This document shows, piece after piece, positions 29,321 through 42,659 of a stretch of DNA of 64,000 bases. The translations under genes were made by a program, and so were the position numbers. The notes under the pieces were generated by a model. The model ran no database searches and had not been told where the DNA came from. It saw nothing but the letters and a program-made list of their open reading frames with translations. Position 1 is the stretch's first letter, and every line of letters starts with the position of its first letter. The stretch lies in NCBI GenBank assembly GCA_001717545.1, contig CP017039.1, forward strand, positions 1,612,001 to 1,676,000, given 5' to 3'. The DNA comes from Anaerolineaceae bacterium oral taxon 439 (GTDB taxonomy: Bacteria > Chloroflexota > Anaerolineae > Anaerolineales > Anaerolineaceae).

Positions 29321-30559
29321 ATGATGAAAAATAAATTTGACAATAATCTTATTTCAAAAATGAATCGAAGGCTTATCCTGGATTTGATTCGACGGAATGG
29401 ACCGATAAATCGGGCGGAGGTAGCGCATGTTACCGGATTAAGCATCCCTACTGTGATGAAGATTACTGACGAATTGAGCAGAATAAATTTAATTCGTGTG
29501 ATTGGAAAACGTAAATCGATTGGGGGCAAGCGGCCGGAGCTCTATGAGTTTATACCTAATTCATTCTGCACGATTGGGTTAGATATAGGGCGAAATAAGA
29601 TCCGCGCTCTTGTGATGGATATGTCTGCAAAAATTATTGCGAAGAAAGAAATCAGAACAGAAGAAACACATCCTGAGAGTGAACTTATTGAACGATTAAT
29701 TGTCTTAGTAAAGGAGTTAATTGCCGAGAGCAGTTTGAATGAGAACGAAATCCTGGGATTGGGAATCGGCATGCCCGGGCTGTTGGATACGGAAGCTGGC
29801 GTCGTTTTATTTTCTCCTGACTTTAATTGGGAGCATATCCCGCTGATTGAAAAATTTGAGGAGGAGTTTTCGTTCAGAACGGTTCTTGAGAATTCCAATC
29901 GAACGTTGGCGTTAGGCGAGCATTGGTTTGGCGCGGGGACTGACTCTAACGATCTGATCTGTGTGAATTTAGGATATGGAATCGGTGCGGGAATTATTGA
30001 GAACGGCGAAATCATTCAAGGCTCCAGCGGCAGTAATGGTGAATTTGGACATATCATTTTGGATAAAAATGGTCCGATCTGTAGCTGTGGAAACCGCGGC
30101 TGTTTGGAAGCTATCTCTTCCGGATATGCAATCGCGAATCAAATCAAGTATATGGTGGAACAGGGAACCAGTTCCATTGTGACAGAAATGTGCTGTGGTG
30201 ACTTATCGAGGATTGACGCTAAACTGGTTTTTAAGGCAGCTTTTTTGGATGATGAACTTTGCAAAAAGGTAATTAATAATGCTGTTGAATATATTGGGAT
30301 CGGAATTGCAGCATTAATCAACTTATTTGATCCTGAACAGATTATCCTCTCGGGAGGAATAACAAAATCCAGCGAAACGTTTAAAGAGAATCTCGAAATT
30401 ATTATTCAGAATAATCAAATGCGATTTGCAGGGAGAAAAGTACAGATTAAATATGGCAAGCTGGGAGATAACGCGTCAGCTATCGGTGCGGCGACGCTCC
30501 TTATTAAACAGTTGATTGATAATGGTGGATTTATTGATTCCCTTGATATACCATTGTAA
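29321..30559 (+). CDS. ROK family transcriptional repressor (XylR/NagC type)
   Basis: 412 aa. N-terminal winged helix (residues about 10-75): RRLILDLIRRNGPINRAEVA, HVTGLSIPTVMKITDELSR, GKRKSIGGKRPELYEF. The ROK domain follows with the ATP-like motif GLDIGRNKIRALVMDM, GIGMPGLLDTEAGVV, and the zinc motif GEFGHIILDKNGPICSCGNRGC. ROK repressors release DNA when a sugar binds the ROK domain. It is divergent from nothing but directly precedes the ABC cassette, and an inverted repeat very like known XylR operators overlaps the cassette promoter. The inducer is probably the transported sugar. Confidence 0.9.
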   Translation: MMKNKFDNNLISKMNRRLILDLIRRNGPINRAEVAHVTGLSIPTVMKITDELSRINLIRVIGKRKSIGGKRPELYEFIPNSFCTIGLDIGRNKIRALVMDMSAKIIAKKEIRTEETHPESELIERLIVLVKELIAESSLNENEILGLGIGMPGLLDTEAGVVLFSPDFNWEHIPLIEKFEEEFSFRTVLENSNRTLALGEHWFGAGTDSNDLICVNLGYGIGAGIIENGEIIQGSSGSNGEFGHIILDKNGPICSCGNRGCLEAISSGYAIANQIKYMVEQGTSSIVTEMCCGDLSRIDAKLVFKAAFLDDELCKKVINNAVEYIGIGIAALINLFDPEQIILSGGITKSSETFKENLEIIIQNNQMRFAGRKVQIKYGKLGDNASAIGAATLLIKQLIDNGGFIDSLDIPL

Positions 30560-30621
30560 ATGGTACTTTTATCATAGGATCTAAATGACAAATGCCTGTT
30601 TTCTCTTTTCCCCTTTCCCAT

Positions 30622-30645
30622 TATACTTAGTTTACTTAACTAAGT
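30622..30645 (+). promoter_or_regulatory. -10 box and ROK/XylR-type operator before ABC cassette 1
   Basis: TATACT (30622-30627) overlaps a perfect inverted repeat ACTTAGTT (30625-30632), N5, AACTAAGT (30638-30645). Firmicute XylR operators have TTAGTTTG and CAAACTAA-type arms, so the outer TTAGTT/AACTAA arms agree. The position over the transcription start is typical of repression by the ROK protein encoded just upstream. Confidence 0.7.
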
Positions 30646-30682
30646 TCAACTGATGCGGCTCAAACTACCAAAGGCGGATATT

Positions 30683-32182
30683 ATGAGTCAAAGTATATTA
30701 ATAGAGGTTGACAATATTACAAAATGTTTCCCTGGAACAATTGCGTTGGATCATGTTCATTTCAAAGTGAGGAAGGGATCTGTCCATGCAATATGCGGCG
30801 AAAATGGGGCTGGAAAATCAACGCTGATGAATATCATTGGCGGTGTATTTCTGCCGACGGAAGGAACCATTTTTTTTGAGGGAAATCAGGTAAGTATTCG
30901 ACGTCCAAAAGACGCGCAGGATCTGGGAATCAGCTTTGTTCATCAGGAACTGATTTTATGTGAGGAGCTCACCATTGCGGAAAATATCTTTATCGGCCGA
31001 CTTCCTAAAAGGTATTTAGCTGTCGATTATGTGAAGTTATTTGATCAGGCAAATCGTGTATTGGAACGATTCTCGGTTCCATTTACATCTGAAAGAATCG
31101 TTTCTTCGTTAAACGTTTCAGAAAAACAGATTGTTGAGATAGCCAAAGCTATATCGCTTAAATCTAAGTTGTTGATTCTGGATGAACCGACTTCTTCTTT
31201 GTCTGAGAAAGAAACTAAAAAGTTATTTGATATTATTCGGAGTCTTAAGGAGGAAGGACTCAGTATTTTATATATTAGCCACAGAATGGCTGAAATTTTC
31301 GAAATATGCGATCGTGTAACGATTTTACGGGATGGGAAGATTGTGAAGGAGAAGAATATCTCTGATACATGTCCTGATGAGGTTATTCAATGCATGGTCG
31401 GGCGGGCTCTGACAGATATGTATCCCGAAAAGAATATCAACAGTGGAGAAGAGCTCTTACGGGTTGAGAATCTTTCTAACGACGGCTTTTTTTCTAATAT
31501 AAGCTTTCGGCTATTCAAGGGCGAGATTTTGGGCTTTGCGGGGTTAGTCGGCGCAGGGCGGAGTGAGATTATGCGCTCGCTTTGCAGTATCGACAGCAAA
31601 ACCTCGGGATCCGTTTTTTTAAATCAAGAGAGTATTTCCTTTGAAAGGTATTGTGATTGTATTAGAAATGGAATTGTTTATTTGACCGAGGACCGGAAAT
31701 CAGAGGGGCTTTTTCTTGAAATGAGCGTTAAGAATAATATTAGCGTTGTCGATCTTAAAAATATTTCTGACGACTTGATTATTCGTAAACGAAAAGAGGA
31801 TTTATTAACCGCTGCGTATTGCTCAAAATTGGGAATTAAGACAGCTTCTATTGACTCGAAAGCCTCAAGTTTAAGCGGCGGTAATCAGCAAAAAGTGGTG
31901 ATTTCCAAATGGTTAGCAGTAAATCCAAAAATTATTATTTTAGATGAACCAACTCGTGGGATCGATGTGGGCGCTAAATCAGAGATTCATAAACTCCTTA
32001 GAGAGTTGGCTTCGGCCGGTATTGGAATCATCATTATTTCATCCGAACTGCCTGAGGTGATTGGCCTGTGTGATCGAGTTATTGTCATTCATGAAGGAAG
32101 GATTTCAGGTCAACTTTTATCCAACCAGTTTTCTGAGGAGTCTATATTGCGATTAGCATCTGGAGAGATCTCAATTAAATAA
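30683..32182 (+). CDS. Sugar ABC transporter ATP-binding protein (RbsA/MglA type)
   Basis: 499 aa from the ATG at 30683, preceded by AAAGGCGG; an upstream ATG at 30653 lies too near the promoter. Two fused ATPase domains: the first with GENGAGKSTLMNIIGG, the D-loop region LLILDEPTSSLSEKE and LYISHRMAEIFEICD; the second with the degenerate Walker A GLVGAGRSEIMRS, signature LSGGNQQKVVISKWL and Walker B IIILDEPTRGIDVGAKSE. This double-domain plan with an active C-terminal signature defines the carbohydrate uptake class CUT2. It energises import with the permease and binding protein that follow. Codon use is AT-richer than in the flanking housekeeping genes. Confidence 0.93.
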   Translation: MSQSILIEVDNITKCFPGTIALDHVHFKVRKGSVHAICGENGAGKSTLMNIIGGVFLPTEGTIFFEGNQVSIRRPKDAQDLGISFVHQELILCEELTIAENIFIGRLPKRYLAVDYVKLFDQANRVLERFSVPFTSERIVSSLNVSEKQIVEIAKAISLKSKLLILDEPTSSLSEKETKKLFDIIRSLKEEGLSILYISHRMAEIFEICDRVTILRDGKIVKEKNISDTCPDEVIQCMVGRALTDMYPEKNINSGEELLRVENLSNDGFFSNISFRLFKGEILGFAGLVGAGRSEIMRSLCSIDSKTSGSVFLNQESISFERYCDCIRNGIVYLTEDRKSEGLFLEMSVKNNISVVDLKNISDDLIIRKRKEDLLTAAYCSKLGIKTASIDSKASSLSGGNQQKVVISKWLAVNPKIIILDEPTRGIDVGAKSEIHKLLRELASAGIGIIIISSELPEVIGLCDRVIVIHEGRISGQLLSNQFSEESILRLASGEISIK

Positions 32183-32196
32183 GGAGCGGGTATTCC

Positions 32197-33147
32197 ATGA
32201 AATCTATGATAAAGAAGTTGACAGCTAAGCGTGAGGCAAGTGTTGCTTTAATTACGGTTTTGGCTGCGTTGATCACCGGTTTATTCCAACCCAAATTTTT
32301 TAGTATCAGCAATCTACGGTCGCTTGCGATAGGGCTCTCGACGGATGGAATCCTTGCAATCGCGCTGACGATTGTTCTTGTCCTCGGCGGTATTGAGCTT
32401 TCGGTGGGGTCTGTTATGGCTCTTTCTTGCGTGTTGGTCGGTTGGACGTTCTTAATAACGGATAATATTCTTTTTGGAATAATTGCTTCTCTTACCGTCG
32501 GAATTGGAATCGGTTTGTTTAATGGTTTGATGATCAGTAAATTAGATTTGCCTCCTTTTATTGTGACGCTTGGGATGCAGAGCCTAGCAAAAGGAGCGGC
32601 TTATATTTTTACGGAAGGTTCCCCTCTAAGTATGGGCGGTCTTCCTCAGTGGTTCAGGACGCTTGGGCGAGGATCTGTATTTAATATTCCGATTATTTTT
32701 ATTATCTTTATGGTTCTGGCTGTGATTTTTGATCTTTTAATGAAAAATATCACTACATTCCGAATGATTTTTTATGTTGGAAGCAATGAAAACGCGGCAA
32801 AGCTTTCCGGTATTAACGTTTCTGAAGTGAAGGTTGGTGTGTACATGCTTTCCGCTTTACTCGCAACGCTCACAGGAATTCTAAGCTTGTCCCGATTTAA
32901 TGTCGCGACGCCGACGCTTGGCACGATGGCTGAAACGCGTGCTATTTCTGCTGCAGTTATTGGCGGAACGAGTATGGCTGGTGGGGTTGGAACTGTTGTG
33001 GGTACTGTTCTCGGTGTCGTTTTATTAAACATAATTAATAATGCACTTGTAATGCTGAACGTATCGGTTTATTGGCAGGATTTCGTGACTGGCGCAATTC
33101 TTATCCTTGCGGTAACGCTCGATTATGTCTCTCATAGAAAAAAATAG
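32197..33147 (+). CDS. Sugar ABC transporter permease (RbsC type)
   Basis: 316 aa with eight to ten membrane helices. Family marks: LTIVLVLGGIELSVGSVMALSC, GLFNGLMISKLDLPPFIVTLGMQ, the coupling region NENAAKLSGINVSEVKVGVYML, and TRAISAAVIGGTSMAGGVGTV. It forms the membrane channel of a CUT2 importer. The gene starts 14 nt after the ATPase gene with an AAGGAG ribosome site, and the binding-protein gene follows. Confidence 0.93.
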   Translation: MKSMIKKLTAKREASVALITVLAALITGLFQPKFFSISNLRSLAIGLSTDGILAIALTIVLVLGGIELSVGSVMALSCVLVGWTFLITDNILFGIIASLTVGIGIGLFNGLMISKLDLPPFIVTLGMQSLAKGAAYIFTEGSPLSMGGLPQWFRTLGRGSVFNIPIIFIIFMVLAVIFDLLMKNITTFRMIFYVGSNENAAKLSGINVSEVKVGVYMLSALLATLTGILSLSRFNVATPTLGTMAETRAISAAVIGGTSMAGGVGTVVGTVLGVVLLNIINNALVMLNVSVYWQDFVTGAILILAVTLDYVSHRKK

Positions 33148-33204
33148 TTTATTCGTGGAATAATGCCGAAATTCTTCGGCAGGTAAATAAAATAAGGAGT
33201 TGTG

Positions 33205-34158
33205 ATGAAAAGAAATGTATATTTGTCGGTTGTTATCTTAGCTACAATGTTGCTTGTCATGATTGCGCCGGTTTTAGCTCAAGAGAGCGTTCTTACCGGG
33301 GCTCCGGATGAGGAATACTACATGATTTCATTTTTGTCCGGAATCGATTATTGGAAGACCTGCTTTCAGGGTTTCGAAGATTCCGCCAGGAATCACGGTG
33401 TGAAGGTTTTTTATACGGGCGATGCCAGCGCTGACGTTGCTAAGCAGGTCTCAGTCTTTGAACAAGTAGTCGCGAAGAACCCGAAGGGGATTGCCGTTAC
33501 CTGCGTTAATGCTGATGCGCTGGTTGATCCGATTAATGATGCAATTTCAAAGGGGATTCAAGTTGTTACCTTTGATTCAGATTCCCCGAACAGTCAACGC
33601 GCTTCGTATCTTTCGACAGGGAACGAAGCCGTTGGCGCTCGGGCAGCTCATTATTTCGCCGATATAGTTCCTGATGGGAAAATCGCGCTGCTCTATACAG
33701 TTGGTGCTGAAAATTCGGAAGCAAGGGTTGACGGGTTTGAGAATGAAATTGTGGCCGCAGGATTGAATATAGAGGTCGCAGCAAAAGTTAATGATAAGGG
33801 GGATCAGATCGAAGCTACGAAAAATATGGCCGCTGCTCTGCAGGCGGACCCGTCGATTAACGCCGTTTTCTGTATGGATGGGGTCGCCGGTGTGGCTGGC
33901 CCTACGGCTGTCATGGAGGCTGGTCGGGACGATATAAAGGTTGTTGCTTTCGATACGGATTCTGCAGTGCTGGATATGGTAAAAAATGGCGAGATTATGG
34001 CTACGGTTGCGCAAGGTACATATTCTATGGGGTATTGGTCTATGGAGTTCTTGTTTAGTTTAGCGCATGACTTGTCAAAATCGGCGCTGCCAACTTTCGT
34101 TGATACCGGCGTCACTTTTGTCGAATCCGACACGGTCGATCGTTACTATGTAAGATAA
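33205..34158 (+). CDS. Sugar-binding protein of ABC cassette 1 (RbsB-like)
   Basis: About 317 aa; the ATG at 33205 fits AAGGAG better than the GTG at 33202. A Sec signal peptide (LSVVILATMLLVMIAPVLAQ) has no lipobox cysteine, unlike the cassette 2 receptor. The mature part is of the periplasmic-binding type 4 family: YYMISFLSGIDYWKTCFQGFED, AVTCVNADALVDPINDAISKGI, VVTFDSDSPNSQRASYLSTGN, and IKVVAFDTDSAVLDMVKNGEI. These match ribose/galactose/autoinducer-like receptors; the exact ligand is open. Last gene before a strong terminator. Confidence 0.9.
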   Translation: MKRNVYLSVVILATMLLVMIAPVLAQESVLTGAPDEEYYMISFLSGIDYWKTCFQGFEDSARNHGVKVFYTGDASADVAKQVSVFEQVVAKNPKGIAVTCVNADALVDPINDAISKGIQVVTFDSDSPNSQRASYLSTGNEAVGARAAHYFADIVPDGKIALLYTVGAENSEARVDGFENEIVAAGLNIEVAAKVNDKGDQIEATKNMAAALQADPSINAVFCMDGVAGVAGPTAVMEAGRDDIKVVAFDTDSAVLDMVKNGEIMATVAQGTYSMGYWSMEFLFSLAHDLSKSALPTFVDTGVTFVESDTVDRYYVR

Positions 34159-34170
34159 TAAAATCTGAAC

Positions 34171-34208
34171 GAGGATGCCCTGTCGCAGGCGACGAAAGGG
34201 GCATCCTC
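34171..34208 (+). terminator. Terminator after ABC cassette 1
   Basis: GAGGATGCCC (34171-34180) pairs with GGGCATCCTC (34199-34208); a T-run follows at 34216-34220. Confidence 0.8.
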
Positions 34209-34268
34209 GAATGAATTTTTCGGAGATGCTAAATTTATAAGAATGATGATTGGATTACGGGATAAGTT

Positions 34269-35438
34269 ATGATTAATAATTTTTTGTATGAGCAGACGAC
34301 TAAAATTCTTTTTGGCGTTGGAACCTTCAATCGCATTGGAATCGAAACGGCGAAATTTGGCAGGCGCGTTTTGCTGGTTACTGAATCGGATAAGCCGCCT
34401 CTCGCGGTCGTTTATGATAAAGCTGAAGCACTATTGAAAAAAGAAAACTTGGAAGTTTTTCGATTTACAGGCGTGATCCCGAACCCAACAACTGAAAGTA
34501 TTAACCTGGGGACAGAAATCGCGCGAAAACAGAAAATTGACGTCGTCGTAGGAATTGGCGGCGGCTCTGCATTGGATACGGCCAAAGCGATAGCTGTGTC
34601 CGCAGTAAATGAGGGGCAAGCATGGGATTTTCTTTTTTATAAGAAACCTCAGCCGCAGCGGACATTGCCGACAATTGCCGTCACGACGACTTCTGGTACG
34701 GGTTCGCAAGTAACTCAGGTTGCAGTGATGACCGAAACCGTGACAAGGACAAAAAGCGCAATCTACAATAATCTTATTTTTCCCAAAGCTGCTGTGATCG
34801 ATCCAGAACTAATGGCGACAATTCCCGCGCATATTACTGCGTCTACCGGTTTTGACGCTTTCGCTCATTCTTTTGAGAGTTATTTAAATATAAATAGTTC
34901 CGTTTACACAGATATGGTTGCGTTAGAAGGCATCAAAAACTGTGTAAAGTTTTTAGAGCGTGCTGTTAACCATGGGGACGATCTCGACGCTCGAACAGGC
35001 ATGGCTTGGGCCGATCTTTGCGGCGGACTTGCTATTGCGAACGCAGGCGTTACATTGCCGCATGGTATTGGTATGACGATAAGCGGATACTGCCCGCATA
35101 TTATGCATGGCGAAAGTCTTGCGTTAACCTACCCGTCTTTTACCCGGTTTACGTTTCCTTACGCGGTTCAAAAATTTGCACAGGTCGCAAGGTTATTTAA
35201 TCCGGGTTATTCGTCTGAAACGGATTTGAAAGCTGCAGAACTGTGCTGTGAGGAAATTGATATTTTTCTGAAAAAAATTGGCATGTGGCTGGGATTCAAA
35301 GAATTTGGTGTTGATCGACATACGCTTCGGGAGATCGCAAACCGGAGTCACGATTTACCGGATTATAAAGCAAATCCGGTGATCGCTGACATCGACGAAA
35401 TCTATCGTCAGCTTCAAGTGGGCCTCGATCGTACGTAA
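34269..35438 (+). CDS. Iron-containing alcohol dehydrogenase
   Basis: 389 aa, the usual length of group III Fe-ADHs. NAD(P) motif VVGIGGGSALDTAKAIAV, TTTSGTGSQVTQVAVM, then the metal ligands: Asp in PELMATIPAHITASTGFDAFAH, with His in the same stretch, and His residues in GVTLPHGIGMTISGYCPHIMHG. Members oxidise or reduce small alcohols, diols, glycerol or lactaldehyde. It follows cassette 1 after a terminator, on the same strand, and probably acts on the imported substrate or its fermentation products. Confidence 0.9.
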   Translation: MINNFLYEQTTKILFGVGTFNRIGIETAKFGRRVLLVTESDKPPLAVVYDKAEALLKKENLEVFRFTGVIPNPTTESINLGTEIARKQKIDVVVGIGGGSALDTAKAIAVSAVNEGQAWDFLFYKKPQPQRTLPTIAVTTTSGTGSQVTQVAVMTETVTRTKSAIYNNLIFPKAAVIDPELMATIPAHITASTGFDAFAHSFESYLNINSSVYTDMVALEGIKNCVKFLERAVNHGDDLDARTGMAWADLCGGLAIANAGVTLPHGIGMTISGYCPHIMHGESLALTYPSFTRFTFPYAVQKFAQVARLFNPGYSSETDLKAAELCCEEIDIFLKKIGMWLGFKEFGVDRHTLREIANRSHDLPDYKANPVIADIDEIYRQLQVGLDRT

Positions 35439-35595: not shown

Positions 35596-36618
35596 TTATT
35601 TCAGGTACTGATCGACGTTATCCTTTGTGACCAGGACGAACGGGATCACCGGCGCTTTATCGAATTCGCGCCCTTCAATCGCCGCTTTAATAACGTCGAT
35701 CCCGGCGGCGAGCTGTCCCACGCCGTCCTGAAGGACGGTCGCGCCTAATTCGCCGTTCTTGACCATCTGAAGCGGGTTCTGGTTGCCGTCGACGCCGACG
35801 CAGACGATATCGCTGCGCCCGGCATCGTTCGCGGCACGCTGCGCAGCGGAGGACATATCATCGTTATCCGCGATAACGGCGACGAGCTCTTCGCCATACT
35901 GGGCGATCGCGTCGGTCGTCGCGTTGGCGGCCTTATCGCCGGACCACTGCGTATCGGGTTCGCCGACCATCTCGAATTCCGGATGCTTCTCCATGACTTC
36001 CATGATCCCCTGTCCGCGTTCGATCTGCGCAGAGTTGCCGAGAATACCGGTGCAGTGAATATATTTTCCGCCGTTCGGGACGTTCTTGATGACCCAGTCC
36101 GCCAGCATGCGGCCGGCCTCAACGTCGTTCGAACCGCAATAAGCGATCGCTTTTTCGTCGGTGCTGACGGTTTTGGAATTGACGACGATAACCTTGACGC
36201 CCTGATCGACGAGCTTCGTGACCGCCGGGTCGGAAGCTTCGGATTCGGCCGGGAGGATGATCACGTAATCGGCGCCCTTGGTGATGCATTCGTCCGCGCG
36301 GTCGATCTGCTTATTCGGGTCGGTTTCGCCGTCTAAAACGCCGGTCCAGTCGTCAATCACGCCGTCTTTTTTCATCTGCTCGATCGTCGTTTCAGCGTAA
36401 GCGTTGATCGGCGCATGGAACGGGTCGGTCAGGTTCTTCGAAATATAGCCGACGACAATCTTGCCGTCGCCGTTGACGTCGCCCGGCTTGGCCGCGGGGC
36501 CGGCGTCAGAGCTCGCCGGGGCCGAATCCCCGGCGGGTTTTTCGCCCTTCCCGCCGCAGGCGGCCAGGCTGAGCGCCAGAACTAATACGAGTAAAATACC
36601 GATGAACTTCTTGAACAT
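35596..36618 (-). CDS. Sugar-binding lipoprotein of ABC cassette 2 (RbsB-like)
   Basis: 340 aa. A signal peptide with lipobox (LVLALSLAACGGKG) is followed by a Ser/Ala/Pro linker and a type 4 periplasmic-binding domain: KIVVGYISKNLTDPFHAPIN, ADYVIILPAESEASDPAVTKL, GVKVIVVNSKTVSTDEKAIAYC, and DIVCVGVDGNQNPLQMVKNGEL. The ligand is probably a pentose, hexose or polyol. In this cassette the receptor gene comes last, after the ATPase and permease genes, as in cassette 1. The two receptors are diverged paralogs, so different ligands are likely. Confidence 0.9.
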   Translation of the reverse strand: MFKKFIGILLVLVLALSLAACGGKGEKPAGDSAPASSDAGPAAKPGDVNGDGKIVVGYISKNLTDPFHAPINAYAETTIEQMKKDGVIDDWTGVLDGETDPNKQIDRADECITKGADYVIILPAESEASDPAVTKLVDQGVKVIVVNSKTVSTDEKAIAYCGSNDVEAGRMLADWVIKNVPNGGKYIHCTGILGNSAQIERGQGIMEVMEKHPEFEMVGEPDTQWSGDKAANATTDAIAQYGEELVAVIADNDDMSSAAQRAANDAGRSDIVCVGVDGNQNPLQMVKNGELGATVLQDGVGQLAAGIDVIKAAIEGREFDKAPVIPFVLVTKDNVDQYLK

Positions 36619-36638
36619 ATGATTTGTACCTTTCTGGT

Positions 36639-37613
36639 TTATTGATTCTTTTTATTCATCAGCATGTCTAACAGCACGGCTCCGACGATGACGCTGCCTT
36701 TGACGATCGACTGATAGTAGGACGAAACGCCGATCAGGTTCATGCCGTTATAGATAAAGCCGATGATAAAAATTCCCATTAAGACGCCGGGAATCGTCGC
36801 GATCCCGCCGGCGAAGGATGTCCCGCCGAGAACGCAGGCAGCAACAGCGTCAGTTTCGTAGCCAATTCCAATATTGGACTGGGCGGATCCGGTTTTCGCC
36901 GTAAAGATAATCGCCGCGATCCCGGCGAGAAGTCCGCTGACCGTGTACACGCCGACTTTTGTCTTGAATTCGCTGACGCCGGAAGCGATCGCCGCGTTGA
37001 CGTTCCCGCCGACGGCGAAAATATAACGCCCGAAAACGGTCCAATGCATCAGCAGGTAGACGATGATTGTAACAACGAAAAGCATGACAATCGGGACCGG
37101 GATACCGAAGAGTTTATTCGAATAGATTCCCTTAAAAGCGTCGCTGGTTAATGAAATGGCTTTCCCGGAGCTGATAACCTGCGACAGTCCGCGAATGATC
37201 AACTGTGTTGACAGGGTGACGACGAACGGGAACATGTTGAACTTCGCGATCAGGATCCCGTTCAGGCAGCCGAACGCGGTAGAGACCAGCAGCGCGATAA
37301 AACATGCCAGCCAGATATTCATGTTCATGTTTGTGATCGTCTGTCCCAGGACGCAGCTCGTCAGCGCCAGCTGCGCGCCGACCGATAAATCGATCCCGCC
37401 GGTTGTAATCGCCAGGCACATACCGTAGGCGATCATGCCGTTAATCGAAACCTGCGCTGCGACGTTGATGAAATTGACTTTCGTCGCGAACCTTGGCTCC
37501 ATGATCCCGATTCCGATCATCATAATCAGCAGGACGGCGCCGATCCCGTAATTCCCCATGAAACGCCGAAACGCATCGTTATTCTTTTTTACCAATGTGT
37601 TTTTTTCTGTCAT
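36639..37613 (-). CDS. Sugar ABC transporter permease of cassette 2 (RbsC type)
   Basis: 324 aa from the ATG at 37613, which begins MTEKNTLVKKN; a longer open frame to 37904 overlaps the ATPase gene and is not credible. About ten membrane helices. Family marks: MCLAITTGGIDLSVGAQLALTS, GCLNGILIAKFNMFPFVVTL, VNAAIASGVSEFKTKVGVYT and VAACVLGGTSFAGGIATIPGV. It starts 5 nt after the ATPase stop, so translation is probably coupled. Confidence 0.92.
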   Translation of the reverse strand: MTEKNTLVKKNNDAFRRFMGNYGIGAVLLIMMIGIGIMEPRFATKVNFINVAAQVSINGMIAYGMCLAITTGGIDLSVGAQLALTSCVLGQTITNMNMNIWLACFIALLVSTAFGCLNGILIAKFNMFPFVVTLSTQLIIRGLSQVISSGKAISLTSDAFKGIYSNKLFGIPVPIVMLFVVTIIVYLLMHWTVFGRYIFAVGGNVNAAIASGVSEFKTKVGVYTVSGLLAGIAAIIFTAKTGSAQSNIGIGYETDAVAACVLGGTSFAGGIATIPGVLMGIFIIGFIYNGMNLIGVSSYYQSIVKGSVIVGAVLLDMLMNKKNQ

Positions 37614-37618
37614 TTGCT

Positions 37619-39139
37619 TTACCCCGCAACGTCTCCAAAAGCCTTCGCTAAAATATCTTTTTCTGTAACTGATTCGGAAAGAATATCCGATCGGGAAACT
37701 TCGCCGCTGATCCGACCCTCGTGATAGACGAGAACGCGGTCGCTCATGCTCATGACCTCCGGGAGCTCCGATGAGATCATGATAACCGCCATCCCTTTCG
37801 CCGCAAACTGGCACATCAGCGCATGGATTTCGGCCTTCGCCCCGACGTCGACGCCGCGGGTCGGCTCGTCCAGGATTAGCAGCTTCGGATTCGCCATGAT
37901 CCATTTCGAGATTACGACTTTCTGCTGGTTCCCGCCGCTGAGCGAATAGGCGGTGTGCTCGATACTGGCTGCCTTAACCGTCAGCCGCTTCGCGACGTCT
38001 TCGCATTCGCGTTTTTCGCGTACCTGGTCGATGAGCAGGCCGCGCTGATGTTTCGGGAGGTTTGGAAGCGAAATATTTTCGCGCAGCGATCGGAGAAGGC
38101 AGAGCCCGTAGTTCTTGCGGTCCTCGTTGACCATGCAGATTCCTTTCGCGATCGCGTCGGAAGGCGATTTAATCCGGATTTCCTTCCCGTCCAGATACAT
38201 CTTCCCGGATTCCAGCGGATCGAGCCCAAAAATAGCCCGCATCGTTTCGCTTCGTCCCGACCCAACCAGTCCGGCGATGCCTAAAATCTCGCCGGCATGA
38301 ACTTTAAAGTTGACGTCTGAGAAGCCTTTGCCGCTGAGATCCTTCGCTTCAAAAACGACATTCCCGATTTCACAGTCGGCCTTTGGAAAAATGTTTTCTA
38401 CTTTTCGCCCGACCATCATCGCGATCAGGTCATGCTTCGTAACTTCGGCGAGTGGACGCGAATCGATAAACATACCGTCGCGGAAAACGGATACCTGATC
38501 GCAGATATCAAAAATCTCATTCATCCGGTGCGAAATGTAGATGATTGCGACGCCTTTGGCCCGGAGGTTTTTGATGACGCGGAAAAGATGGTCGGTTTCT
38601 TCGCTGTCCAGCGAGGATGTCGGCTCGTCCATGATAATCAGGCGCGCGTCGGAGGAAACGGCTTTGATAATCTCGATCATCTGGACCTGAGCCAGCGTCA
38701 ATTCCTTAATCAGCGTCGTAGCTTGATAGGGAAAATCAAATTGCCGAAGGATTTCGTTTGCCCGATCGTTCTGTTTCCGTTTGTTCAGGAAAATTCCGCC
38801 AACCGTGTCTTCGCGCTTCAGGAAGATATTTTCCGCGATGGAAAGATGCGGTTCGGGGTTGAGCTCCTGATGAATCATGGCGATTCCCGCTTTAATCGCG
38901 TCGACCGGGCCCTTCGCCTGATAAGGTTTTCCCTCGAAGAACATCTCGCCCTTATCCTGCTTGTACAGTCCGATCACGATTTTCATCAGCGTCGATTTAC
39001 CCGCTCCGTTCTCGCCCATTAACGCATGAACCTCGCCGGGGCGGACTTGCAGCTGTACGTCTTTAAGCGCCTGCGTTCCGCCGAACGCTTTGCTGATGCC
39101 TTTGCAGTTGAGAATGAATTCCTGTTCGTTTACCGCCAA
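37619..39139 (-). CDS. Sugar ABC transporter ATP-binding protein of cassette 2 (RbsA/MglA type)
   Basis: 506 aa, two ATPase domains as in cassette 1: GENGAGKSTLMKIVIGLY and LIIMDEPTSSLDSEETDHLF in the first; GLVGSGRSETMRAIFGLDP, LSGGNQQKVVISKWIMANP and LLILDEPTRGVDVGAKAEIH in the second. First gene of the minus-strand operon, with a GGAGGGCGC-type ribosome site. Its composition is GC-richer than that of cassette 1, so the two cassettes have different histories even though the gene order is the same. Confidence 0.93.
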   Translation of the reverse strand: MAVNEQEFILNCKGISKAFGGTQALKDVQLQVRPGEVHALMGENGAGKSTLMKIVIGLYKQDKGEMFFEGKPYQAKGPVDAIKAGIAMIHQELNPEPHLSIAENIFLKREDTVGGIFLNKRKQNDRANEILRQFDFPYQATTLIKELTLAQVQMIEIIKAVSSDARLIIMDEPTSSLDSEETDHLFRVIKNLRAKGVAIIYISHRMNEIFDICDQVSVFRDGMFIDSRPLAEVTKHDLIAMMVGRKVENIFPKADCEIGNVVFEAKDLSGKGFSDVNFKVHAGEILGIAGLVGSGRSETMRAIFGLDPLESGKMYLDGKEIRIKSPSDAIAKGICMVNEDRKNYGLCLLRSLRENISLPNLPKHQRGLLIDQVREKRECEDVAKRLTVKAASIEHTAYSLSGGNQQKVVISKWIMANPKLLILDEPTRGVDVGAKAEIHALMCQFAAKGMAVIMISSELPEVMSMSDRVLVYHEGRISGEVSRSDILSESVTEKDILAKAFGDVAG

Positions 39140-39609
39140 CTTGCGCCCTCCTTCATGTTTGAACGTCTAAAATCGCTGGCGCGCAGGTATATTTTCTTTG
39201 AATCTGAACGCCTCTGCGCGCCGAATAGGTTTGAGAAAACGTTTCCTTAGTTTTCGCGAACGCTTTTCTGATCGTGTTTTCTTTCGCTCCTGTCCTTTCG
39301 GCTATGGTATTCTTTTCCTGTACGCAAAAATCTAACACTTGCACGGGGTGCTTATTTCGCTGCGTTCAACTTACGTATATTCTTTTTGAAAACTCTAAGC
39401 TTAAGTTTAGGGCCTAACTGCAGGTTTGTCAAGGTTGAATTTATCTTCAATTTGAATATTTTTATAAGATGTAAAATGGTAAAATATATCTTTTTGTATG
39501 TTTCGCTGGCGGGTGGTGAACTCCGTCTCTTTGCATTTCCGGCGGCGATGGGTATACTAAGCGTATCAACGCTGGGAATGACGATCCCGCGACCAGAAAG
39601 GAATTGCCC
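39140..39609. promoter_or_regulatory. Divergent regulatory region with two candidate operators
   Basis: 470 bp between the cassette 2 ATPase gene (minus) and the PfkB gene (plus); no gene seen. CTAAGCTTAAGTTTAG (39395-39410) is a 16-bp palindrome with one mismatched pair. GAAAACGTTTCC (39235-39246) has the AAACGTTT core usual for LacI-family operators. The centre is AT-rich. TATACT at 39553-39558 is a possible -10 box for the PfkB gene. No regulator gene for these sites is adjacent. Confidence 0.5.
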
Positions 39610-40794
39610 ATGCGAAGCTCTGAATTTCCTGAAACGTCTCTGGCGGAGCCGTCTGGCGATGTGGAAAACCCGACGGGAGCGATCGACGCCGTCGTTGCCG
39701 GATTGATCTGCCTGGACTTCACCCCGGTCTTCGATCATCCGCCGATCAGCCGGATGTCAGAGATTTTTCGCCCCGCCAGTACGGTAATCGTCAGGCAGGC
39801 GGTTATGAATCCAGGCGGCTGCGTTTCGAATACAGGGCTGGCCATGTCCCATTTCGGCGCGAAAACCGCGCTGGTCGCGAAGATCGGGAAAGACGCGTTC
39901 GGCGATCGGATTTTCAACCATATCGCGCGGTACACATCGACGGACTATTTGCTGTATTCGGAAGAGGGCACGGCGTATTCGGTCGTTCTCGCGCCGCCTG
40001 GGATCGACCGCATGTTTCTGCACTGCCCCGCGGGGAACGATACTTTTTCCGCGGACGATATTGATTACAGTCTGGTATCCCGGGCCAGGCTTTTTCATTT
40101 CGGTTATCCGACGATTATGAAACGGATGTATGAGCAGGGCGGCGAAGAATTGACGCGCATGTACGCTCGGGTGAAAGCGCTTGGCGTTACGACGTCGCTT
40201 GACAGCTGTGGAATTGATCCGCTGTCGCCGGTTGGGCGGATTAACTGGGAATTGATCTTAGAGCGAACGATCCCGTTCGTTGATATTTTCATGCCGAGCG
40301 CGGAAGAGCTCTGTTACATGCTTGACCGGGAGCGCCTGAGGGACTGGAAAGAGCGCGCCGGAGGCGGGGACGTCTGTACGATCCTTGAAGAAGGCGACGT
40401 CCGGACGCTGGCGGCGCGGCTGCTTGCGTTGGGCGCCGGGGTTGTTTGCGTGAAATGCGGCGCGTGCGGATATTACGTCGCGGCCGGGACGGAAGAGCGG
40501 CTGGCGTCGGTTGGAAAAGAGCTCGCCGCGACGCTGCGGCCTTGGAATGGCCTGCGGCATTTTGAAGCCAGCTACAAGCCGGATCGCGTGCTGTCTTCGC
40601 TGGGCGCGGGAGATGTCAGCATTGCAGCGTTCCTGACGTCTCTGCTTGACGGATGCGATTGGCGGACTTGCGTTCGCCGCGCGGTAGCGGCCGGAGCTGC
40701 CTGCGTCGAGTCATACTCGGTATTGGACGGGCTCCCGACGCTGGCGGCGTTGGAAGACCGAATCGCGGCGGGTTGGGAAAAGAACGACGTCTGA
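39610..40794 (+). CDS. PfkB family carbohydrate kinase
   Basis: 394 aa, longer than most PfkB kinases (about 310) because of inserts near residues 230-300. The ATG at 39610 has AAAGGA at good spacing; a TTG at 39604 is less likely. Family marks: NPGGCVSNTGLAMSHFGAKTA, LVAKIGKDAFGDRIFN near the start, and the C-terminal anion-hole and catalytic base motif SSLGAGDVSIAAFLTSLL (Asp in GAGD). PfkB kinases phosphorylate sugars, nucleosides or polyols with ATP. It diverges from cassette 2 and faces the SDR gene, so a role in trapping the imported sugar is probable; the substrate is unknown. Confidence 0.87.
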   Translation: MRSSEFPETSLAEPSGDVENPTGAIDAVVAGLICLDFTPVFDHPPISRMSEIFRPASTVIVRQAVMNPGGCVSNTGLAMSHFGAKTALVAKIGKDAFGDRIFNHIARYTSTDYLLYSEEGTAYSVVLAPPGIDRMFLHCPAGNDTFSADDIDYSLVSRARLFHFGYPTIMKRMYEQGGEELTRMYARVKALGVTTSLDSCGIDPLSPVGRINWELILERTIPFVDIFMPSAEELCYMLDRERLRDWKERAGGGDVCTILEEGDVRTLAARLLALGAGVVCVKCGACGYYVAAGTEERLASVGKELAATLRPWNGLRHFEASYKPDRVLSSLGAGDVSIAAFLTSLLDGCDWRTCVRRAVAAGAACVESYSVLDGLPTLAALEDRIAAGWEKNDV

Positions 40795-40829: not shown

Positions 40830-41597
40830 TCAGACGCAGGTGTAGCAGCCGTCGACGATAACGTCGCTTCCGCTCGTATATCCCGAAGCCGGACTCGCCA
40901 GGTACAGGACCGGCGGAATGAGTTCTTCCGGATTTCCCATTCGGTGCATCGGGATCAGCGGCATCCAGGCGTCTTTGAGCTCCTGCGGCGTATCGACGGA
41001 CATCGGCGTCGCGATATAGCCGGGGCTGAGGCTGTTGACGCGGACGCCGCTTTCCGCCCATTCGGCCGCCAGCGAGCGCGTCATGTGGATCACGGCGGCT
41101 TTGGAAGCATTATAGGAGCACTGCCATTGCGGCACGTTGCAGATTGACCCGGACATCGACGCCATATTGATGATACTGCCTTTAATGCCGTTGTCGATCA
41201 TGATTTTTCCCGCCGCGCGGCACATGATAAATTCGCCGGTCAGGTTGCAGTCGACTACCTGACGGAATTCTTCGATCGTCGCTTCGAACGTTCCCTGATG
41301 CATGCAGATCCCTGCGTTGTTGAATACGACGTCGATCGATCCCGATCGTTTCATGATCTCGGCGAGCGCCTTATCGACGTCCGATTCGACCGTCACGTCG
41401 CAACGAAGATCGTAGGCTTTCCCGCCGATCTCTTCGATCTTTTTGACCGTTTCGCCGGCGCCGCTTCGGCTTAGAATAACGATTTCAGCGCCGGCCCTGG
41501 CCAGGCCGATTGCGACGATTTGCCCGATTCCTCGTCCGCCGCCGGTAACGACGGCGACTTTCCCGGCTAATCCGAATAACTCATCTAAATAGGACAT
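40830..41597 (-). CDS. Short-chain dehydrogenase/reductase (SDR)
   Basis: 255 aa classical SDR. NAD(P) motif VTGGGRGIGQIVAIGLARAG, NNAG in DVVFNNAGICMHQGTF, the catalytic Ser in INMASMSGSI and YxxxK in CSYNASKAAVIH, and a closing GYTSGSDVIVDGCYTCV. Many homologs oxidise polyols or sugars (gluconate 5-dehydrogenase, arabitol or sorbose dehydrogenases). It is 36 nt downstream of the MDR gene in the same operon, next to ABC cassette 2, so a polyol or sugar-acid pathway is the best inference. Confidence 0.9.
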   Translation of the reverse strand: MSYLDELFGLAGKVAVVTGGGRGIGQIVAIGLARAGAEIVILSRSGAGETVKKIEEIGGKAYDLRCDVTVESDVDKALAEIMKRSGSIDVVFNNAGICMHQGTFEATIEEFRQVVDCNLTGEFIMCRAAGKIMIDNGIKGSIINMASMSGSICNVPQWQCSYNASKAAVIHMTRSLAAEWAESGVRVNSLSPGYIATPMSVDTPQELKDAWMPLIPMHRMGNPEELIPPVLYLASPASGYTSGSDVIVDGCYTCV

Positions 41598-41633
41598 TCA
41601 TGAACCTTTCTGTTTTCCGGAATCCGTCCGAGG

Positions 41634-42659
41634 TTATTCCTGAACGTTGATAATAACTTTCAGGGTTGAATCCCGGTTCTCATCGATAAATTGATACGCG
41701 TCCGCGAATCGCTGGAACGGGTAAGTCTTCGATACCAGCGGCATCAGGCTGACTTTTTTCGCTTCGACAAGCTCGATCGCGGTAAGGTAATCCTCGCGCC
41801 GATACATCATGCTGGAATTGATATCCAGCTCATGATCATTGGCGACCGCCAGATCGACCGTCGCCATCGAGGCGAAAACGGCGACCAGAATAATGACGCT
41901 GCCTTTTCGGGCGTAGCGGATCGCCTGACCCATCGTTTCGTTGTTCCCGGCGCAGTCGTAAATCACGTCGGCTTTATCCGGCCCATAGGCTTTCGCGATC
42001 GCGTCGCCGAGGTTCTCGACGCCGGTATTGACGCAGTGATCCACGCCGCATTCGGCGGCTTTCCGCAGCCGGAAAGTGCTGATATCGGTGATCATGACCT
42101 CCGCCGCGCCCAGTCCTTTGGCCGTCTGGGCGACGAGATTCCCGATCGGACCCGCGCCTAAAACGACGATCTTCTTCCCGGTCACGTCGCCCGCCTGCCG
42201 GATTGCATGGACGGCGACCGCCAACGGCTCAATCATCGCCCCTTCAACCAGGCTCACGCCGTCGGGAAGCGCGACAGCTTTTTCGGCTTCCGTTGCGAAG
42301 AATTGCGACGCCATGCCGGTCGTCTGGAATCCCATGACTTTAAGCTCTTCGCATAGGTTATATTTCCCGTTGCGGCAGGGGTAACATTTTCCGCAGACGA
42401 CCTGCGGTTGGACGGTTACTTTCTGGCCGGGCTTGAAATCCGCGACGTCAGCGCCGACCGCGACGATTTCGCCCGAGACTTCGTGCCCCTGCGTAACCGG
42501 GTAAGAGGTGAACGGGTGCTTTCCGTGGTTGACGTGGATATCCGAACCGCAGATTCCAATATGCATCATTTTAATCAAGACCTGATTTGCGTTGATCTCA
42601 GGAACCGGGATTTCGCGGAACTCGATTTTTCCCGGAGCCGTCATAACTTGCTGAAGCAT
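41634..42659 (-). CDS. Zinc-dependent medium-chain alcohol/polyol dehydrogenase (MDR)
   Basis: 341 aa. Catalytic zinc site with GICGSDIHVNHGKHPF and TQGHEVSGEIVAVG; the structural zinc loop CGKCYPCRNGKYNLC has all four cysteines; the Rossmann motif VVLGAGPIGNLVAQTAKGLG follows. The family includes sorbitol, xylitol and threonine dehydrogenases. First gene of an operon with the SDR. The upstream 281 bp (42660-42940) separate it from the divergent DUF4143 ATPase gene. With the SDR, the Fe-ADH, the PfkB kinase and two importers it forms a polyol or sugar catabolic cluster. Confidence 0.9.
   Translation of the reverse strand: MLQQVMTAPGKIEFREIPVPEINANQVLIKMMHIGICGSDIHVNHGKHPFTSYPVTQGHEVSGEIVAVGADVADFKPGQKVTVQPQVVCGKCYPCRNGKYNLCEELKVMGFQTTGMASQFFATEAEKAVALPDGVSLVEGAMIEPLAVAVHAIRQAGDVTGKKIVVLGAGPIGNLVAQTAKGLGAAEVMITDISTFRLRKAAECGVDHCVNTGVENLGDAIAKAYGPDKADVIYDCAGNNETMGQAIRYARKGSVIILVAVFASMATVDLAVANDHELDINSSMMYRREDYLTAIELVEAKKVSLMPLVSKTYPFQRFADAYQFIDENRDSTLKVIINVQE

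Follow-up and report, generated by a model that had tools for sequence, protein, structure and literature searches.

XylR operators have been described in Bacillus, Priestia, Caldicellulosiruptor and Paenibacillus. XylR-type sites lie between xylA and a ROK gene in the records of B. velezensis (TTAGTTTGTTGCCTAAACAAACTAA) and P. megaterium (TTAGTTTGTTGGACCAATAAACTAA), and the Caldicellulosiruptor site ATTAGTTTGTTTAATAAACAAACTAAG was used for binding assays (PMC12285236). The site of P. polymyxa, ACTTAGTTTAAGCAATAGACAAAGT, starts with ACTTAGTTT, and its ACTTNG/CNAAGT edges are reported to matter for binding (PMC9104551). In T. maritima, a cluster of xylR, adhB and xyl transporter genes is described, whose XylR responds in vitro also to glucose above 0.2 mM (PMC3750489).

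A different arrangement is found in Clostridium thermocellum, where consecutive locus tags denote a Zn-ADH (Cthe_0388), a PfkB fructokinase (Cthe_0389), a ROK protein (Cthe_0390, = Clo1313_1831), nbdA (Cthe_0391), msdA (Cthe_0392), cbpA (Cthe_0393) and an Fe-ADH (Cthe_0394) (PMC8303734, PMC3492117). CbpA belongs to transporter A, described as the sole glucose transporter of this bacterium; it bound glucose, no other sugar reported as tested there, xylose included, gave a ligand in calorimetry or crystals, and liganded crystals were obtained only with sugars that bound (PMC9601137). Deletion of the ROK gene resulted in immediate growth on glucose and derepression of the fructokinase, and in five glucose-evolved isolates ISCth1 had inserted downstream of the ROK gene at a distance of 137 bp, an insertion for which the authors suggested transcriptional interference (PMC8091016). 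In the parts of the published literature that were searched, including the DAP-seq paper PMC8457756, no operator of Clo1313_1831 was found.

The window, i.e., the whole 64-kb stretch of DNA analysed, belongs to a single-contig genome of 2,945,494 bases and contains a ROK gene followed by sugar transporter genes (Table 1). An earlier note on this DNA had described a perfect inverted repeat with an N5 spacer between repressor and transporter, overlapping TATACT, and all three of these statements hold. The repeat reads ACTTAGTTTACTTAACTAAGT; its arms of eight bases each (30625-30632 and 30638-30645) are perfect, three bases are common to the repeat and TATACT, and the whole element lies between the ROK stop at 30559 and the transporter start at 30683 or 30653.

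Table 1. Features of the ROK-transporter cassette, with window positions and the basis of each assignment.
Feature	Position	Strand	Basis or remark
ROK-family repressor, HTH + ROK domain, 412 aa	29321-30559	+	Pfam
TATACT, possible -10 of cassette promoter	30622-30627	+	read from sequence
Inverted repeat ACTTAGTT-TACTT-AACTAAGT	30625-30645	.	putative ROK operator
AAAGGCGG, likely ribosome-binding site for start 30683	30670-30677	+	sequence; inference
CUT2-type sugar ABC ATPase	30683-32182 (ORF opens 30653)	+	RbsA/AraG/XylG-type models; ABC_tran
CUT2-type sugar ABC permease	32197-33147	+	BPD_transp_2; AraH/RbsC-type models below cut-off
Sugar-binding protein, CbpA-like	33202-34158	+	best PDB match CbpA
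Iron-containing alcohol dehydrogenase	34269-35438	+	Fe-ADH, ADH_Fe_C

Symmetry and sequence of the repeat differ in how unusual they are. With one matching pair out of the two inside the arms, 9 of 10 pairs in 21 bp are complementary. When the 123-base gap between ROK gene and transporter was shuffled 2000 times by dinucleotides, 21 shuffles reached this value and 48 reached an 8-base arm; ten centres in 64 kb show symmetry as good. By itself, the symmetry is moderately unusual (p about 0.01-0.02). The specific sequence is rare. Allowing up to three mismatches, the pattern occurs at one place in the window (shuffle mean 0.07), and the genome holds a single exact copy, the sole other place having three mismatches and lying at the 3' end of a gene; the reversed pattern, used as a control, occurs at 15 places. 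The half-site ACTTAGTTT is not enriched in the window (eight places with at most one mismatch, 6.4 expected), and no second site was found before the ROK gene.

The cassette promoter itself is a putative one, since none of the + strand promoters predicted by the scan uses TATACT, and no good -35 was seen for it. A promoter-like match on the minus strand over the repeat (30649-30620) was dropped; the region had 12 such matches, with 15.1 expected. Position 30683, behind AAAGGCGG, appears to be a better start of the ATPase than the opening of the frame at 30653. None of the RbsA/AraG/XylG-type models reaches its curated cut-off for the ATPase among the best 25 of 193 matches.

The regulator carries the N-terminal winged HTH and the ROK domain that characterize ROK-family transcriptional repressors, with Pfam matches to ROK (1.1e-69) and HTH_24 both over cut-off. 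Ser takes the place of the catalytic Asp of the glucokinase ENDAN motif (ENSN), and the phosphate-1 motif has degenerated to DIGRNK; both changes would fit a sugar sensor without kinase activity. The ExGH and CxCGxxGC zinc motifs are retained. A search of genome contigs with the window ROK brought up a single relative, which is a ROK gene from Gilliamella. In a tree of 31 ROK proteins, the window ROK falls outside both XylR-type groups. Constraining it to XylR-type groups cost 16-32 log units (p-AU 0.036, 0.0016 and 0.001) in AU tests in which the protein is a long branch and the groups were named after the tree had been seen: placement with the Bacillota XylRs is disfavoured (0.036), and placement with the xylose-type ROK clade of the family Anaerolineaceae is rejected (0.0016). 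Due to the long branch, and to a placement that varies between this tree and a FastTree of 47 sequences, our claim is limited to a protein that is not clearly XylR.

The distribution of related sites was studied in 147 genomes of the family. The hexamer pair TTAGTT-N5-AACTAA occurs at 18 places in 16 of them, fewer than its reversed control pattern, and is not enriched. Only two of the 15 other places for which loci were available adjoin a ROK gene, while MarR-like genes, judged by eye, stand beside at least two; hence, the hexamer pair is not ROK-specific. In two family genomes (L079 6132-6156 and L080 7263-7287) it precedes two further ROK genes, closely related and different from that of the window, that adjoin apparent ECF-type transporter genes.

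A longer motif was derived, without the window, from the upstream regions of 18 ROK genes forming one Anaerolineaceae clade (L079, L097, L100, L102, L106, L128-L137, L140, L141, L145). These were picked from 46 ROK genes on the basis of the tree, leaving out the long-branched neighbour L143, after a scan with the window-type pattern had shown similar sites there. The motif search, which always gives one site per gene and was run without a shuffled control, returned 14 distinct palindromic sites of 26-34 bits each, several members being near-identical loci of different genomes. The sites end between 18 bp before and 1 bp past the estimated start, and their consensus is about TTACTTTATTCANTGAATAAAGTAA. 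The dyad geometry ACTT-nn-TT-N5-AA-nn-AAGT is common to this motif and the window repeat. Differences concern the inner bases, mostly CATT, AATT or TATT in the clade and AGTT in the window, and the position, which is directly before the ROK gene in the clade but after it in the window. With the clade matrix, the window repeat is the top-scoring 25-mer of the 64 kb at 14.3 bits, a score matched by 16 of 5000 shuffles of the gap. In a leave-one-out test the clade members reach 26-33 bits, so the window repeat is not a member of the clade motif; 109 kb of genomic sequence from outside the window also hold one place with 14.3 bits, and the matrix alone is therefore no proof. When the motif search was run with four other ROKs and the window gap itself, the sites were scattered over distances of 21 to 85 bp upstream of the starts. 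Both clade loci that were annotated adjoin a GH31 gene, and in the one locus examined further, a GH15-like gene and the gene of a CUT1-type binding protein are also present. GH31 enzymes are alpha-glucosidases but also alpha-xylosidases, and for this reason the neighbours point only weakly to alpha-glucans.

The repeat is most likely the operator of the adjacent ROK repressor. The proposal that it covers the transporter promoter is supported, though not proven, by the single genomic site, its position and its likeness to ROK-promoter motifs. The earlier note went further and called the repeat XylR-like, with xylose or a related sugar as inducer; a XylR as the regulator, with the repeat as its operator and xylose as its inducer, is a reading that we consider improbable. 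XylR operators do resemble the window repeat in having a ROK regulator, an A/T-rich dyad and the TTAGTT hexamer with its AACTAA partner; TATACT likewise precedes the B. velezensis site, and both the half-site with which the P. polymyxa site starts and that site's binding-relevant edges recur in the window repeat (PMC9104551). The T. maritima cluster could likewise speak for such a regulator, as it joins xylR to transporter and adhB genes and its XylR responds to glucose as well (PMC3750489). The arms match known XylR sites in this hexamer, but not in its position relative to the dyad: the known operators are 25-bp sites in which TTAG and its partner stand 4-8 bp wider apart, with TTAG-N17-CTAA in Bacillus and Caldicellulosiruptor and, as described in PMC9104551, TTAG-N13-CAAA in P. 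polymyxa, compared to TTAG-N9-CTAA in the window. A matrix of eight XylR-type sites, whose members score 22-35 bits, places the repeat at rank 35 in 64 kb with 1.9 bits. The repeat does not conform to TTAGTTTGTT-N5-AACAAACTAA or to the Paenibacillus/Clostridium variants, and the whole genome contains no canonical XylR site at up to three mismatches. In the family, 5 of the 7 loci of the xylose-type ROK clade, in which the tree does not place the window ROK, carry an intergenic 25-bp site with 1-4 mismatches to the canonical one (L091 1, L105 2, L094 3, L098 3, L096 4; the remaining two are L108 with 6 and L104 with 7). These were found by pattern scan, whereas the motif search upstream of the same seven genes gave stretches about 150-230 bp upstream and no XylR-like sites. 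As 4-mismatch matches were also seen within a gene (L093) and at two ROKs outside this clade (L100, L106), four mismatches mean little. The records of B. velezensis and P. megaterium show xylA/xylB next to the XylR site; here, xylA (875341) and xylB (876660) belong to a cluster (875-878 kb) that continues with a ChvE/GguAB-type transporter and is about 765 kb away from the repeat. The 16-kb xylAB stretch contains neither an exact CTTAGTT or AACTAAG nor the operator repeat, and with xylAB in another cluster and the operator present once in the genome, control of these genes by the repeat is not indicated. An imperfect palindrome upstream of xylA, AAAATCACCTTGAAAATGTGATTTT (L119 7221-7245, genome about 875.2 kb), is possibly an operator of the xylose cluster. 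The TTAGTT hexamer by itself does not identify XylR, and xylose as the inducer is not supported, given the ROK tree, the distant xylAB genes and a binding protein resembling CbpA, for which xylose is reported to have given no ligand (PMC9601137).

The binding protein also bears on whether a ROK operator at this place might answer to a pentose such as L-arabinose or to another monosaccharide, which we regard as unlikely. An arabinose-binding protein is its second-best PDB match (E 1.9e-70), but CbpA is much closer (E 1.8e-98), with 165 of 284 aligned residues identical (58%). Residues F47, W54 and D229 of CbpA, which are named in PMC9601137, have identical counterparts in the window protein in an alignment read by eye, and the segment around D229 (CMDGVAG) follows CbpA (CVDGVAG) and not the arabinose protein (ATEANGG). 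By analogy to CbpA, the inducer is probably a hexose rather than a pentose. There is very little probability that the repeat is bound by a regulator of another kind, of MarR or TetR type, or that it represents a chance symmetry in an AT-rich gap. The MarR-like neighbours seen by eye in the family, the modest p-value of the symmetry and the lack of half-site enrichment would fit that case; the adjacent ROK gene, the single genomic copy and the first rank with a ROK-promoter motif derived without the window argue against it.

The five cassette genes (29321-35438) form an AT-rich island. Their GC content ranges from 0.395 to 0.475 and their GC3 from 0.38 to 0.47, compared to 0.505-0.60 and 0.58-0.76, respectively, in the 13 flanking genes measured. 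In a search of 400 Chloroflexota genomes including its own, with at most five candidates scored per genome, none of the 399 others yielded a match to the binding protein at E <= 1e-50, and within the 147 family genomes one other match reaches 1e-40, with 34% identity. Given this composition and the lack of such matches in other Chloroflexota, the simplest reading is that the cassette was probably acquired horizontally. No donor was seen. Viral contigs gave no matches to the binding protein and the ATPase, and the best relative of the binding protein among the 20 matches listed from plasmid records has about 32% identity. A second CUT2 cassette in the window, with a PfkB-type kinase, an SDR and a Zn-ADH (35596-39139 on the minus strand, 39604-40794 on the plus strand, 40830-42659 on the minus strand), has resident-like composition and lacks the operator repeat.

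Our findings favour, as the likely overall reading, an operator at which the upstream ROK protein controls an acquired operon for a CbpA-type monosaccharide transporter, with glucose or a related hexose as inducer. In the proposed switch, a ROK dimer would occupy the two ACTTAGTT half-sites over the -10/start region when no inducer is present and prevent transcription of the operon that encodes ATPase, permease, binding protein and Fe-ADH. Once imported, the sugar, for which glucose or a close hexose is the most likely candidate, would bind the ROK domain, and the sugar-bound protein would release the DNA, such that the transporter is made. Fructose may also act as inducer, because the C. thermocellum ROK affects the fructokinase too; no such gene adjoins the window ROK. 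The switch would thus be a fairly ordinary one whose sugar was probably misnamed in the xylose reading, and the likely inducer moves from xylose to a hexose.

In gene content and order (ROK, ATPase, permease, binding protein and Fe-ADH), the window corresponds to Cthe_0390-0394, as judged by consecutive locus tags (PMC8303734, PMC3492117), and its binding protein is CbpA-like; the five genes may be viewed as a self-contained CbpA-type cassette. In both organisms the ROK gene lies upstream of the transporter genes. The host differs, being a member of the Chloroflexota here, and the window ROK lacks the PfkB fructokinase and Zn-ADH neighbours that the ROK gene has on its upstream side in C. thermocellum; PfkB-type and Zn-ADH genes of resident-like composition lie 4-7 kb past the cassette. 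Based on gene order and the likeness to CbpA, the window ROK and Clo1313_1831 may be counterparts, and the repeat would be a candidate operator for a type of repressor that limits the use of glucose and fructose in a cellulose-fermenting bacterium. By their coordinates, the ISCth1 insertions appear to lie in the gap between the ROK gene and nbdA. It is a possible, if doubtful, extension that the window repeat is the first operator to be located for ROK repressors of the CbpA-linked type, that C. thermocellum has the same dyad between its ROK gene and nbdA, and that ISCth1 breaks operator control there instead of acting by transcriptional interference.
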